From a virus: DNA of 25,213 nucleotides. The stretch is taken from positions 1 to 25,213 of the IMG/VR virus record IMGVR_UViG_3300021356_000151; one strand, given 5' to 3'. Position 1 is the stretch's first letter, and each line of letters starts with the position of its first letter. The position numbers and the translations under genes were made by a program. The notes beneath the pieces were generated by a model. That model worked only from the letters and a program-made list of their open reading frames with translations. It was not told where the DNA came from and searched no databases. Below are positions 14,882 through 25,213 of the stretch, one piece after another.

Positions 14882-15589
14882 ATGACAACAATAAAAAGTT
14901 TTGGTGGTAAATCTCGCGTTAAAGGCTGGATGATTCTCAAAAGAGAAAAGTCCCAATCTTTTAGAAATTTTGTTAGAGGTAAAACGGAGTACGACAGTAG
15001 ATACAATAAAAAATTAGAGAAGTTCTTTATTCAGAATGAAGTTGATCAAAGGAGAGTTGCAATTGATGTTGGCGCATCATATGGTTTTGTGACTGAGTAC
15101 CTGAGTCAATCTTTTGATGAGGTAAAGTCTTTTGAAATCGTACCACAAATCAGACAATGTTTAGAAATCAATGTGGACTATCGCGAGATGGACAACGTTG
15201 AAGTTTTTCCGTGTGGTTTGGCCGACGAAGAAAAAACTATTGACATTTGGTTCAATCCATTGTATACTGGGCATTCATCTGCATATATGAACGACGACAT
15301 CAATCGAGAAGGTGACACTATCGAATGTGAAGTTCGAGCGTTAGATTCTTTTCAGTTTGAAAACGTAGACTTTCTGAAGATAGATGTCGAAGGTGCAGAA
15401 TTAGATGTATTAAGGGGTGGTATGAATACGATTGAAACACATCGTCCTATCATTACCACAGAACACGCACAAAAAACACCGGAAGCTATACGAAACTCTT
15501 ATGAGGTAATAACTCTAATGGATAGTTTGAACTACAGATATGTTAAAACTATTTGTGGAGACTTCGTATGGGTTCCAGAGGAATTTTAA
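14882..15589 (+). CDS. FkbM-family SAM-dependent methyltransferase
   Basis: 235 residues, ATG 14882 behind AAGGA. Residues 61-68 (IDVGASYG) are the SAM-binding glycine loop; residues 163-180 (DFLKIDVEGAELDVLRGG) are the FkbM signature. FkbM enzymes O-methylate sugars or polyketides, so the likely target is a glycan. The gene sits between nrdA and iscU, where a methyltransferase has no obvious job, and its first part looks more AT-rich than its neighbours. It may be a late insertion or belong functionally to the glycan cluster starting at 21400. The downstream iscU starts right after its stop, so it is co-transcribed. Confidence 0.85.
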   Translation: MTTIKSFGGKSRVKGWMILKREKSQSFRNFVRGKTEYDSRYNKKLEKFFIQNEVDQRRVAIDVGASYGFVTEYLSQSFDEVKSFEIVPQIRQCLEINVDYREMDNVEVFPCGLADEEKTIDIWFNPLYTGHSSAYMNDDINREGDTIECEVRALDSFQFENVDFLKIDVEGAELDVLRGGMNTIETHRPIITTEHAQKTPEAIRNSYEVITLMDSLNYRYVKTICGDFVWVPEEF

Positions 15590-15964
15590 ATGTATTCTGA
15601 TAAAGTATTAGACCACTACGAGAATCCTCGTAACGTGGGCAAGTTTAATCGAGAAGATGAGGATGTAGGTACAGGTATGGTTGGCGCGCCTGCTTGTGGT
15701 GATGTAATGCAGTTACAAATAAAGGTCAACGAAGATCACATCATCGAAGATGCCAAGTTCAAGACCTATGGATGCGGAAGCGCAATCGCATCATCCAGTT
15801 TGCTTACCGAATGGGTAAAAGGTAAGAGTCTCGATGAAGCTGGAACAATTACAAACACGGAGATCGCAAAAGAACTTTCACTCCCACCCGTTAAAATTCA
15901 CTGTTCCGTGTTAGCGGAAGATGCAATCAAAGCAGCCATAAAAGACTACAAGGAAAAACATTAA
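15590..15964 (+). CDS. iscU: IscU-type iron-sulfur cluster scaffold
   Basis: 124 residues, the normal length of bacterial IscU, from ATG 15590 behind GAGGAA. All cluster ligands are present: C36 and D38 (PACGD), C62 (YGCGSA) and C105 (KIHCS). The LPPVK motif (98-102) recognised by the HscA chaperone is intact. IscU receives sulfur from IscS and assembles [2Fe-2S] clusters for transfer to apo-proteins. No cysteine desulfurase, chaperone or ferredoxin gene is in the window, so it must use host partners. It lies between the two ribonucleotide reductase genes, overlapping nrdB by one base (TAATG). The two radical-SAM proteins at 22241 and 24550 need [4Fe-4S] clusters and are possible clients. Confidence 0.92.
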   Translation: MYSDKVLDHYENPRNVGKFNREDEDVGTGMVGAPACGDVMQLQIKVNEDHIIEDAKFKTYGCGSAIASSSLLTEWVKGKSLDEAGTITNTEIAKELSLPPVKIHCSVLAEDAIKAAIKDYKEKH

Positions 15965-21399: not shown

Positions 21400-22254
21400 A
21401 TGAGTAATTGGTTCCGCGAACCAATCTCTGGACAACCTATTTTTGTTAATGAAAATTATGAAATAGATTGGCGCGGAACGATTGGAGTAGGTGATATACT
21501 GTATGGGTTGAACTGTGCACACTCACTCGCGCACATGTTCAACCATCCTATCAAGATGAATGTGTTCTGGACACACGATGAAGACTACATCTATCATTAC
21601 GAAGATCCTGAAACTATCATCCAACGTTCACACTATCTACACAGTATGTACCATCGTCAGAGTGATGTCACGGTCAATCACATATTCAATTCTACTGATC
21701 AAGAGATCGAGAAACTGAGGTGGCGAGGATTCGGTCACATCAAGGATCAACAACGAGTCATTACCTTTGGTCACTGGCCATTCCGAAAGGAATTGTATCA
21801 CAAGGGTATACCTAAGAAAGTTGTATTCTGGAGACCAACCTTCAACCGTGAAATTCCAAGTGGTGGTAAGAAATGGAAGATGACCTTTACGGTTGGTGAG
21901 TGGGAACGTATCATACAGTTCCTAGAACTCAAAGGATACAACCTAGTTGAACTAGGATATCGCACACCCGTCAATGAAGCTCTGTATCATATACGCACCG
22001 CATCTTTTTGTATTTTCTATGATGGTATGTGGCAGTATATCTCGCGCAATCTGTGCAAACCAGTAATCACATTAGGTGGCAGTTCTATTGCAAAGGTTCA
22101 CAGTCCACAAGGAATTCATTTCTCTGAACCACATGATCCAAAAAACCACTTCTGGGATTACCTATATAAATTACCAAGGAACGAACAACACCTAAATAGT
22201 AGAGCAAATCGTTATAAAAATAGTCTATGGGATAAAATAAATGTTTCAGATTGA
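21400..22254 (+). CDS. Probable glycan-related protein, possible glycosyltransferase
   Basis: 284 residues from ATG 21400, directly after the previous stop. No DxD motif is clear. Features seen are WRGTIGVGDILYGLNCAHSLAHMF near the N-terminus and, near the C-terminus, FCIFYDGMWQYISRNLCKPVITLGG, which resembles the nucleotide-sugar side of GT-B enzymes such as ADP-heptose transferases in shape (Gly-rich strand-loop after a helix). The call rests mainly on the following genes (radical SAM, two GT-A-like transferases). It overlaps the radical-SAM gene by 14 bases. A non-enzymatic role remains possible. Confidence 0.5.
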   Translation: MSNWFREPISGQPIFVNENYEIDWRGTIGVGDILYGLNCAHSLAHMFNHPIKMNVFWTHDEDYIYHYEDPETIIQRSHYLHSMYHRQSDVTVNHIFNSTDQEIEKLRWRGFGHIKDQQRVITFGHWPFRKELYHKGIPKKVVFWRPTFNREIPSGGKKWKMTFTVGEWERIIQFLELKGYNLVELGYRTPVNEALYHIRTASFCIFYDGMWQYISRNLCKPVITLGGSSIAKVHSPQGIHFSEPHDPKNHFWDYLYKLPRNEQHLNSRANRYKNSLWDKINVSD

Positions 22255-23218
22255 TCGTGCAGTGATAGAAATCAACGGGGGGTGTAACTTCTCGTGTAGT
22301 ATGTGTCCACAGGATATGCGTACCGGTGGCAGACACAAAGACTTTTTGCGTAAGATGACTCTCATTGAGTTTGAAGCAAATGTCGCAGACTGTGCAAAAC
22401 ACGGTCTCAATGTAGTCAACCTTGACGGTAGTGGTGAGGCGACACTGAATCGCAACCTACCAGAGTATATCAAGATTGTCAAGCGTTATGGCGCAAAGGC
22501 AGTTATCTTTTCAAACGGTTTTAATATGAAGGGTCAGTTTATGCGCGACTGTGTCGACGCAGGCCTTGACTTCTATCGGTTCTCATTCATTGGGTCAAAT
22601 CGTGAACAATACGACAAATGGATGTACAATCGTATCGGTAGTAACTATGATATAATCATAAATAACATACGCGAAATGAAAAAATATGTGGATGAAACGC
22701 AATCCACATGCACTGTTGCAACGTATCACCTTATAACTGACAACGATAACCTTGACCAAGAACTTGAAGAATACAAGTCTCTTGTTGAGGACTTAGGCGT
22801 CTCCACAGAAATCTGGAAGATGCACAACTGGAGCGGAGTTTACAAACCGGAATATGACAGAAACGGAAGTGTTAAAACTTGTGGTCGTCCTTTCAGTCCC
22901 GATGTCGTTATACGGGCTGGTGGTCTGGACGGTCGTTCAGGGGCAGTTGCGCCATGTTGTCAAGTCCTTGGAAGAGACGAAGAAGCAGTTCTTGGACATA
23001 CAAGCGAGTCAACAATCGAAGAAATCTGGTACGGAGAAGCATACGAACAATTAAGGGAACAACACCGAACCGGTGACTATCCTGATTTCTGTAAGGGGTG
23101 TGACTTCCTACTCGATGATCCAGAAGTGTTAGTGTACACCAATTTTGGTCGTGACAATTATAAGATGTACGGTACAGAATTTGATCTGGATGATTATCGC
23201 GATGTCACAACGACCTGA
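22241..23218 (+). CDS. Radical SAM enzyme with SPASM-type C-terminus
   Basis: 325 residues from ATG 22241, with GGGATAA upstream. Residues 15-22 (CNFSCSMC) are the CxxxCxxC site of the SAM-cleaving [4Fe-4S] cluster. NLDGSGEATLN (60-70) corresponds to the SAM-binding GGE-like motif. The C-terminal region has C214 (CGRPF), C239/C240 (APCCQV), and C284 and C287 (FCKGCDF), a SPASM-like auxiliary cluster set. SPASM enzymes modify peptides or sugars and some act as dehydrogenases or epimerases; the context of glycosyltransferases points to a sugar or nucleotide-sugar substrate. It needs iron-sulfur clusters, and iscU is in the same window. Confidence 0.88.
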   Translation: MFQIDRAVIEINGGCNFSCSMCPQDMRTGGRHKDFLRKMTLIEFEANVADCAKHGLNVVNLDGSGEATLNRNLPEYIKIVKRYGAKAVIFSNGFNMKGQFMRDCVDAGLDFYRFSFIGSNREQYDKWMYNRIGSNYDIIINNIREMKKYVDETQSTCTVATYHLITDNDNLDQELEEYKSLVEDLGVSTEIWKMHNWSGVYKPEYDRNGSVKTCGRPFSPDVVIRAGGLDGRSGAVAPCCQVLGRDEEAVLGHTSESTIEEIWYGEAYEQLREQHRTGDYPDFCKGCDFLLDDPEVLVYTNFGRDNYKMYGTEFDLDDYRDVTTT

Positions 23219-23759
23219 AGTATGGATGATCCAAATCCCCGACAATCCTCGTTCGATGTATTATCGTGGACGGGTCGAAGAGTCATGGAAAGATTATAAG
23301 GTTAAATACTTCAACGCAATCACGCCACAGAATCCACCGAAACACAAATACTTGAACTTTGGTAAAAAACGTGATACAATAGAGTTCACTGATACTGAAA
23401 TAGCTGTATGGTATAGTCATGTAGAGTTATGGGCAAAGGCGAGAACCAGACCGATTCTGATTATCGAACACGACGCACTTTTGGTTGAACCAATACCAGA
23501 TGAACTGTTTGATAATGATATGGTTTGTTTTGGACATACTGGTAAATCAAAACAGACTTTGCCTGGCCTTGCGTACTACCTTACACCTGAGATTGCTAAG
23601 ATCATGGTAAACGGAGTCAAGAACACAGAAACTATTGCATGGAACTCGGACGGGTCTATACATAGTTATTGTAAAAAGCATGGAGTGTTCGCGACAGAAC
23701 ACGTGTATCAAGTGCAGAACCGTTCGATTGGAACAACTATAGAGCACCTTAAAAAATGA
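23202..23759 (+). CDS. GT25-like glycosyltransferase
   Basis: I chose ATG 23202 (185 residues), overlapping the previous gene by 17 bases; the frame extends upstream only through that gene. Residues 63-96 read TDTEIAVWYSH, then RPILIIEHDALLVE: the order SEIACxxSH followed by a strand and an acidic ExD is the pattern of glycosyltransferase family 25 (lipooligosaccharide galactosyltransferases), with E-H-D here. GT25 enzymes transfer sugars from UDP donors to LPS or protein. The next gene overlaps by ATGA. Probable target: a surface glycan, virion protein or modified base. Confidence 0.75.
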   Translation: MSQRPEVWMIQIPDNPRSMYYRGRVEESWKDYKVKYFNAITPQNPPKHKYLNFGKKRDTIEFTDTEIAVWYSHVELWAKARTRPILIIEHDALLVEPIPDELFDNDMVCFGHTGKSKQTLPGLAYYLTPEIAKIMVNGVKNTETIAWNSDGSIHSYCKKHGVFATEHVYQVQNRSIGTTIEHLKK

Positions 23760-24553
23760 GAAGATTGATATATCAAGTTTGTTTGGGAAAGGCGAAGGAT
23801 TCCAAACTATACGCACACTGTATTGAGAGTGTCAAGAAGTATTGTAAAAGACACGGCATCAAACATCTGGTGCAATCACAACCAGTATTGTGTATTCGTC
23901 CAGATCCTTTCATGAGTAATCGTTCCGAAGAGTCGTGGAAAAAACACGGTGGGTTCCTACCTATCTACGAGAAAGAGAATGCGTTTCGCCAAGAGTTTCT
24001 ACACAAGTATGATCAGATTGCGATTGTAGATGCAGACATCTTCATCCGTGACGATGCACCAAATATCTTTGACGACTTTGATAAGAACACAGTGTTTGGC
24101 GCAGTCTGTGAACGTGAAATGCCTATCAACGAGAAGTACAAGGCAAAGATCACCAACTACTCAATCATGCAGTATAAACCACTGCACAACACAAGAGTCG
24201 ACTTTAAGCCCAACAACCTTGGGTTTGAGTTTTTCAATATGGGGTTGATCCTTTTCAACACAAAAAAACTAGAACCGTTTTTGCGTGGACAAGACCCACA
24301 ACAGTTTATTGAACGTGGAGAGTTCATGGACTTCGTGAATGGTAAGGGTGCATGGAAATGGTCGACTGATCAAACTCTGTTGAACTTCTGGATCAAGAAA
24401 CACCGTATACCGATTCAACATCTAAGTTGGAAGTGGAATGGGTTGTACACCGCAAATACTAATATACCTGAGTGCAACTTCATACATTTCTTTTTAAAAG
24501 ATTTACTGCCCTCACAAGGGGAAAACGTCGAAGAGTTAATGAAACTGATATGA
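23756..24553 (+). CDS. GT8-like glycosyltransferase with DxD motif
   Basis: 265 residues from ATG 23756. Residues 90-100 (IVDADIFIRDD) have the D92-x-D94 metal and nucleotide-sugar binding motif preceded by a hydrophobic strand, as in GT-A glycosyltransferases. FFNMGLILFNTKKLEPFL is typical of the second half of GT8-like enzymes (N-x-G-x2-L-F), and KWSTDQTLLNFWIKK supplies the later D-Q motif. It has no signal peptide. It shares ATGA junctions with both neighbours, so is part of one operon. Acceptor unknown. Confidence 0.8.
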   Translation: MRRLIYQVCLGKAKDSKLYAHCIESVKKYCKRHGIKHLVQSQPVLCIRPDPFMSNRSEESWKKHGGFLPIYEKENAFRQEFLHKYDQIAIVDADIFIRDDAPNIFDDFDKNTVFGAVCEREMPINEKYKAKITNYSIMQYKPLHNTRVDFKPNNLGFEFFNMGLILFNTKKLEPFLRGQDPQQFIERGEFMDFVNGKGAWKWSTDQTLLNFWIKKHRIPIQHLSWKWNGLYTANTNIPECNFIHFFLKDLLPSQGENVEELMKLI

Positions 24554-25213
24554 AATCTTACGAAGAAAAAACACAAAAATTTTCTACTTGGGGGGACAAG
24601 TATCTTCATCACACCGATGTGTTATACTCTATTCAGTATGAAGATAAGTTCAAACCAATCAATGTACAACTCTGTCTATGTGAGGTCTGTGACAGTGATT
24701 GTCCTTTCTGTTCGGTGGCTGCAAGACCACTGAAGAGTTATATACCTTGGGACAAACTCACAAAGATGTTAGTGGACTTTCGCGAGATGGGTGCAAAGGC
24801 ATTAGAGATTACCGGTGGTGGTAATCCTATGTTGTACCGTGACAGGAAAGCAAAAAAGAACATCAATGATGTTGTAAAGTTTGCGGGTGATCTGGGGTTT
24901 GATATCGGTATCATTACCAACTCAGAGAATATCGAAAGACATCTCAACCCCGAAGTTTACGAATATGTAAATTGGTTACGGGTCAGTCTAATTAAACTGG
25001 ATGAAGGCAAAGACCCCGAAGACTATGATTTCGGTTCTTTTCCTCGTGACCGTATTGGTATTAGTTATATCATATATGAAAGTACAGGAGGTGTACCAGA
25101 CGAACTCTCTCGAACTAATAAACCTTATGTTGGTACCACGGTAGAAAGTATTCGTAAGATTGCACGATTGGTAGAGTTGAATCCCCAACTAAAATTTTGT
25201 CGCATCGGTGGTA
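24550..25213 (+). CDS. Second radical SAM enzyme, 3' end outside window
   Basis: ATG 24550 overlaps the previous stop by four bases, and the frame stays open to the right edge (221 codons). Residues 47-54 (CDSDCPFC) are the CxxxCxxC motif, with extra cysteines C42 and C44 just before. LEITGGGNPML is the GGE/SAM-binding region. The C-terminal part that would show SPASM or B12 domains is missing. It is not close in sequence to the radical-SAM protein at 22241 beyond the core motifs, so the cluster has two different radical enzymes. The substrate is likely related to the flanking glycosyltransferases; this is inference from context. Confidence 0.85.
   Translation, partial: MKSYEEKTQKFSTWGDKYLHHTDVLYSIQYEDKFKPINVQLCLCEVCDSDCPFCSVAARPLKSYIPWDKLTKMLVDFREMGAKALEITGGGNPMLYRDRKAKKNINDVVKFAGDLGFDIGIITNSENIERHLNPEVYEYVNWLRVSLIKLDEGKDPEDYDFGSFPRDRIGISYIIYESTGGVPDELSRTNKPYVGTTVESIRKIARLVELNPQLKFCRIGG

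Follow-up and report, generated by a model that had tools for sequence, protein, structure and literature searches.

Glycosyltransferases (GTs) accompanied by radical S-adenosylmethionine (radical SAM) enzymes are already known from marine T4-like phages: the host recognition cluster of pelagimyophages, in the part of the source that describes it (PMC7029224), holds several GTs, mostly of the GT8 family, along with radical-SAM cassettes, and modification of lipopolysaccharide (LPS) was proposed as its role. Here we analyze a comparable locus at the right end of the IMG/VR virus record IMGVR_UViG_3300021356_000151, the whole of which constitutes our window (25,213 bases). It comes from a marine T4-like phage, and its NrdA is nearest to that of Phage C48C1 (Kyanoviridae; 79%), followed by those of Methylophilales phages (66.5%). 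Five overlapping open reading frames (ORFs), announced in a preliminary description of the sequence, indeed occupy positions 21400-25213. All on the plus strand, they encode, in order, a GT-B-fold protein, a radical SAM enzyme (rSAM1), a GT25 protein, a GT8-like protein and a second radical SAM enzyme (rSAM2). The window's phage group resembles the pelagimyophages in being T4-like, marine and equipped with both GTs and radical-SAM cassettes, but the published account of their cluster, as far as it extends, describes no GT-B/rSAM1 unit; likewise, within our phage collection, Pelagibacter phage HTVC008M differs in having an rSAM2 relative only, and none of rSAM1. The locus had been put forward as an undescribed modification system, which is true of the rSAM1 family and its chemistry, whereas GT/radical-SAM cassettes as such figure in that earlier account. 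What is new is the phage-restricted rSAM1 family, the coupling of its gene to that of the GT-B protein, and an rSAM2-methyltransferase module. Our literature search found no report on C48C1, on a phage carbamoyltransferase with radical SAM enzymes, or on SPASM proteins with polysaccharide synthesis.

The identical gene order was seen again in dozens of contigs, so the cluster is not a chance assembly. Gene co-occurrence, which the preliminary description had named as a check, bears this out: the GT-B gene lies immediately 5' of rSAM1 in 75 of 82 loci, and in 52 of these 75 adjacent pairs the two reading frames overlap by 4-38 nucleotides, which suggests translational coupling. The GT25 and GT8-like genes come after rSAM1 in most loci. 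Together, these observations support the radical enzymes and GTs as a single unit, and marine T4-like phages share a modular glycan island of which the locus represents one variant. The phage records compared are metagenomic contigs, with absences judged on several of 144-156 kb and neighborhoods based on simple ORF calls. A T4-type late motif was found within 120 nucleotides upstream of the GT-B gene in 0/80 copies, as against 28/28 loci with the late-promoter motif ATAAATA before the first gene of an alternative cassette described below (background 5%). This contrast mildly favors non-late expression of the GT-B/rSAM1 unit, although read-through from upstream late genes may reach GT-B.

Both radical enzymes, which are of an oxygen-sensitive kind, carry the CX3CX2C motif within the PF04055 domain that marks the radical SAM superfamily. 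For rSAM1, scores of 47.0 bits against PF04055 (cut-off 29.5) and 34.7 against the SPASM profile PF13186 (cut-off 21.5) confirm the SPASM-type assignment made earlier, and scores above the Pfam cut-offs also uphold the GT25-like gene and the second radical-SAM gene truncated at the edge. The invariant cysteines of rSAM1 comprise C15-X3-C19-X2-C22 and the auxiliary C214/C239/C284/C287; four invariant auxiliary cysteines are likewise present in complete rSAM2 copies. The full seven-cysteine SPASM set is lacking in rSAM1, which has an adjacent C240 and no further CX5CX3C run, and on sequence grounds its auxiliary cysteines represent a predicted twitch-type set. Among five PDB sequence matches for the C-terminal domain, the top one was BtrN (26.8 bits, in two weak pieces), a 2-deoxy-scyllo-inosamine dehydrogenase that also combines a radical SAM with a twitch domain and whose auxiliary-cluster GxxPC and CxxC motifs align with rSAM1. 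However, the local match amounts to only 15 bits, and the listed BtrN chain (269 amino acids) falls about 55 residues short of rSAM1. Fold searches with an rSAM1 model (predicted local distance difference test score, pLDDT, 69.8) were not discriminating, as the sugar-acting BlsE and DesII ranked first with MoaA and viperin close behind.

We recovered 334 relatives of rSAM1 in IMG/VR. A scan of 84,980 cellular genomes gave two close matches, both on contigs whose PhoH, lysozyme, GT-B and GT genes are typical of the window's phage group; by gene content these are phage contigs misbinned into a Sphingobacteriales and a Euryarchaeota metagenome-assembled genome (MAG; L086 and L087), and a cellular origin of rSAM1 was rejected. 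Beyond these two contigs, the next match was 23% identical and none exceeded 34% identity. Because of this, we regard the family as phage-restricted within that genome collection and the sensitivity of the scan. Over the same 561 locus pairs, median identity was 75% for rSAM1, 60% for PhoH and 40% for the GT-B protein, the rSAM1 figure being inflated by selection of the pairs on rSAM1 similarity. In a set picked by PhoH, rSAM1 occurs in 25 of 36 loci having at least 5 kb downstream, and is missing from L121 and L134, where GTs and rSAM2 are present; rSAM1 is therefore a common yet dispensable module.

The first protein of the cluster, previously labeled an uncertain GT, returned no match in Pfam, PHROG or NCBIfam, and searching its family against PDB sequences gave nothing useful. 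An AlphaFold (AF2) model built from a 40-sequence alignment (pLDDT 86.7) nevertheless displays a GT-B fold, in keeping with that label. Foldseek placed TibC and WaaC at the top (probability 0.99), and the VIA aligner returned Z scores of 11.2 for WaaC and 10.9 for TibC over about 200-210 aligned residues, compared with 7-8 as the usual best for models without a clear match. The family is invariant at G31-D32 and Y207-D208-G209, and D208 pairs with WaaC D261 in a local profile alignment (50 columns, low probability); both the GxGD loop (by eye) and the C-terminal aspartate of these heptosyltransferases have counterparts in the phage protein. At the same time, identity to WaaC and TibC is only 12-14%, the window protein is shorter, and it lacks a match to the GT9 profile PF01075. 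Because that profile was absent from all phage records searched (0/14), we describe the modeled protein as having a WaaC/TibC-like fold and not as a demonstrated GT9 member.

Complete copies of rSAM2 in relatives span 367-374 amino acids (369 in L004, a near relative whose rSAM1 is 96% identical), and C47/C51/C54 with C265/C288/C342/C345 (L004 numbering) remain invariant down to 20-25% identity. A viperin-like antiviral role was considered and rejected, as NCBIfam NF038283 scored 36.6-36.9 bits against a cut-off of 180. rSAM2 and its METHYLTRANSFERASE recur together: a single methyltransferase family adjoins rSAM2 in the window's group (18/24, counting window-group loci within the methyltransferase cluster, with several other rSAM2 copies cut by contig ends), in HTVC008M and in Synechococcus phage SynMITS9220M01. 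Beside it, the clusters of the latter two phages hold either a carbamoyltransferase with a UDP-glucose dehydrogenase or genes for heptose. At E <= 1e-20, rSAM2-like proteins were detected in 26 of 398 genomes from the phylum of a Magnetococcales MAG. As in the phages, operons of this MAG and of same-phylum genomes place a homologous methyltransferase directly after the rSAM2-like gene. A relative of the phage methyltransferase was adjacent in 17 of the 24 bacterial loci examined, and every methyltransferase match in those loci adjoins an rSAM2-like gene. Split transketolase genes, along with those of a HAD protein and of an HldE-like enzyme whose two domains are swapped in order, occur in several of these operons, a genomic context that ties rSAM2 to the making of unusual sugars. 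The bacterial operons differ in that the window's phage group has no such genes near rSAM2, and pairwise similarity is low. Heptose synthesis in the window's phage group was also rejected, the GmhA-type PF13580 being absent except in SynMITS9220M01, where it falls below cut-off.

Table 1. Features of the window, with the evidence for each assignment
Feature	Position	Strand	Evidence
FkbM-family methyltransferase, possibly of the same glycan island	14882..15589	+	PF05050 73.5 bits; TIGR01444 88 bits
IscU Fe-S scaffold, between FkbM and NrdB	15590..15964	+	TIGR01999 225.7 bits (equivalog cut-off 192.4)
GT-B-fold putative glycosyltransferase, 284 amino acids, WaaC/TibC-like fold	21400..22254	+	AlphaFold model, Foldseek
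rSAM1, member of a phage-restricted radical SAM family, with a SPASM domain of twitch type	22241..23218	+	PF04055, PF13186
GT25 family glycosyltransferase	23202..23759	+	PF01755 29.3 bits (cut-off 24)
GT8-like glycosyltransferase, DxD-type motif (DAD)	23756..24553	+	PF01501 23.6 bits (cut-off 24.3)
rSAM2, second radical SAM enzyme, truncated after 221 residues by the record end	24550..25213	+	PF04055 30.9 bits (cut-off 29.5)

Among the remaining cluster genes, the one earlier called GT8-like has a DAD motif that a weak profile alignment sets against the DAD of E. coli WaaJ; its PF01501 score stops just short of the cut-off. Sugar-nucleotide enzymes had been sought past the right edge, and that region can be read in L004, where the order is GT25, GT8, rSAM2, methyltransferase, GDPD-like protein, fusion of a HAD phosphatase and an NTP-transferase (nucleotidyltransferase), FkbM and further GTs; the UDP-glucose dehydrogenase and epimerase, however, lie about 40-60 kb off. 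A NodU-type carbamoyltransferase is encoded upstream in 62 loci. In other loci, rSAM2 and the methyltransferase give way to a cassette that encodes a protein with a GATase domain, a cupin and proteins resembling sulfotransferases. This alternative cassette, which starts at protein cluster 19 and was seen in 28 loci (L007:12374-15000 among them), opens with a conserved 232-residue protein without a Pfam match. Its GATase best matches the NCBIfam gamma-glutamyl-CDP-amidate hydrolase at 65.5 bits against a cut-off of 250, so that the cassette recalls the Campylobacter phosphoramidate capsule pathway, though far under the cut-off. We also observed, in a relative lacking rSAM1, an ORF resembling UDP-sulfoquinovose synthase by eye (L136:4820-6007). 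In a pelagimyophage host recognition cluster, GTs and radical SAM genes adjoin tail fiber genes; in C48C1, the region upstream of the cluster encodes three large proteins without annotation. C48C1 also has a phage-encoded alternative oxidase (L176:1280-1831, C48C1 26279-26830; PF01786, 224 bits).

With respect to donor sugars, 9 of 12 phage records have a single PF01370 epimerase gene. Its neighbor inside the replication module, in C48C1 and in six metagenomic genomes, is a homolog of UDP-glucose dehydrogenase, as in the nucleotide-sugar epimerase/UDP-glucose dehydrogenase pair at L176:10327-12227 (C48C1 35326-37226). PDB relatives of the phage epimerase, 6zl6 among them, carry no more specific name than 'Epimerase domain-containing protein'; we take them to be UDP-glucuronate 4-epimerase structures, in which case the phage dehydrogenase and epimerase would yield UDP-glucuronic acid (UDP-GlcA) and UDP-galacturonic acid (UDP-GalA).

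Two genes farther upstream, for an FkbM methyltransferase and IscU, had been suggested to serve the same pathway. The FkbM protein may belong to the same island, as members of its protein cluster also lie downstream of rSAM2 in L004, L006 and L064. The partnership of IscU did not hold up: of 21 loci in which NrdB is visible, 5 have it, and NifU_N, scattered among relatives, was found in just 4 of 12 rSAM1-bearing phage records. IscU is thus not co-conserved with rSAM1, and we rejected it as a dedicated partner.

Taking these lines together, we assign a probability of roughly 0.5 to a phage glycan-decoration island with a host surface glycan as the likeliest acceptor. Three GTs would add sugars onto an acceptor reached from the cytoplasm, the donors probably being host nucleoside diphosphate (NDP)-sugars and phage-made UDP-uronic acids. 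rSAM1 and rSAM2 would perform 5'-deoxyadenosyl-radical chemistry (oxidation, epimerization or deoxygenation) on a sugar of the glycan, and the methyltransferase adjoining rSAM2 would act on its product. The acceptor would most likely be a surface glycan of the host, its LPS core or some other, whose change in the course of infection would block competing phages or protect the cell. We favor a glycan island because the genes past the edge belong to glycan biosynthesis, the carbamoyltransferase recurs upstream, GT-B and rSAM1 are paired, rSAM1 weakly matches a radical-SAM dehydrogenase of an aminocyclitol, and the rSAM2-methyltransferase pair recurs in phage and bacterial sugar loci. An LPS or other surface acceptor is suggested because GTs of all three kinds (with a WaaC-like fold, GT25 and GT8) take part in LPS core synthesis, and because LPS modification has been proposed in print for related phages. 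Directly observed are which genes are present, their families and folds, the cofactor cysteines, and the gene pairs that are conserved and recur in sugar loci of phages and bacteria; from them we infer the sugar as radical substrate, the surface destination and the benefit. Several points weigh against this reading: the sugar is a putative substrate, many SPASM enzymes use peptide substrates, and GT8 and GT25 families glycosylate proteins too.

The acceptor could instead be a virion protein, such as a tail fiber or capsid decoration, which the same enzymes would glycosylate in the cytoplasm; the two radical enzymes would then tailor its glycan. The initiating sugar-phosphate transferase PF02397 and the flippase PF01943 were found in 0/12 phage records, so that the pair required for a Wzx/Wzy-type polysaccharide locus is lacking there, and the cluster proteins in six loci show no clear membrane segment (a small holin-like neighbor has one). 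The product is therefore probably added either to a surface glycan of the host or to a virion protein, and the missing exporter fits the latter equally well, as a cytoplasmic acceptor would suffice. One of the two folds nearest to the GT-B protein belongs to TibC, a protein heptosyltransferase, but the LPS enzyme WaaC is equally close, and the late motif seen before the alternative cassette is lacking before GT-B; we consider a virion target possible, though doubtful. Less likely still is that rSAM1 acts as a SPASM-type maturase on a protein or peptide that receives a radical modification as well as sugars. Most characterized SPASM enzymes work on peptides, and the higher median identity of rSAM1 than of GT-B, in a set selected on rSAM1 itself, looks as though its substrate were fixed; yet no small conserved precursor-like ORF lies beside rSAM1, its usual neighbors are GTs, and its four auxiliary cysteines are those of twitch enzymes such as BtrN. 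The DNA-base target entertained in the preliminary description, with sugar and radical chemistry acting on viral bases, is highly improbable and poorly supported. The UDP-glucose dehydrogenase/epimerase pair within the replication module of several genomes would suit it, as would Tet_JBP dioxygenase domains in C48C1 (50309-50755) and G011 (130083-130541), and a C5-methyltransferase-like ORF was read by eye in G005. However, the thymidylate-synthase/dCMP-hydroxymethylase family PF00303 was absent (0/11 phage records; controls 9/14 positive), which removes the hydroxymethyl-base route and, as the starter enzyme, argues for a non-DNA acceptor. The TET route was rejected with Tet_JBP in only 2 of 12 rSAM1-bearing records. 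In addition, the C48C1 DNA methyltransferase is of the N6-adenine type, and the GT families of the cluster are not known DNA glucosyltransferases. Of the sugar-and-radical pathway first envisaged, then, the unit of radical enzymes and GTs stands, while the DNA target and the tie to IscU find no support.

Radical SAM enzymes need strict iron-sulfur chemistry, and a conserved, virus-confined one implies a product worth the cost. Tentatively, and with less confidence than in the glycan island itself, we suggest that rSAM1 is a phage-only radical enzyme making a sugar, or a group linked to one, that cells are not known to contain. In a large group of marine T4-like phages, the coupled GT-B protein would install this product on the virion or on the cell being infected. 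The rSAM2-methyltransferase pair, common to SAR11 and Synechococcus phages and to bacterial sugar loci, offers a tractable two-gene unit for a new sugar modification. If rSAM1 does tailor a surface or virion glycan, it would give abundant marine phages a route to change how the cell or the particle is recognized.

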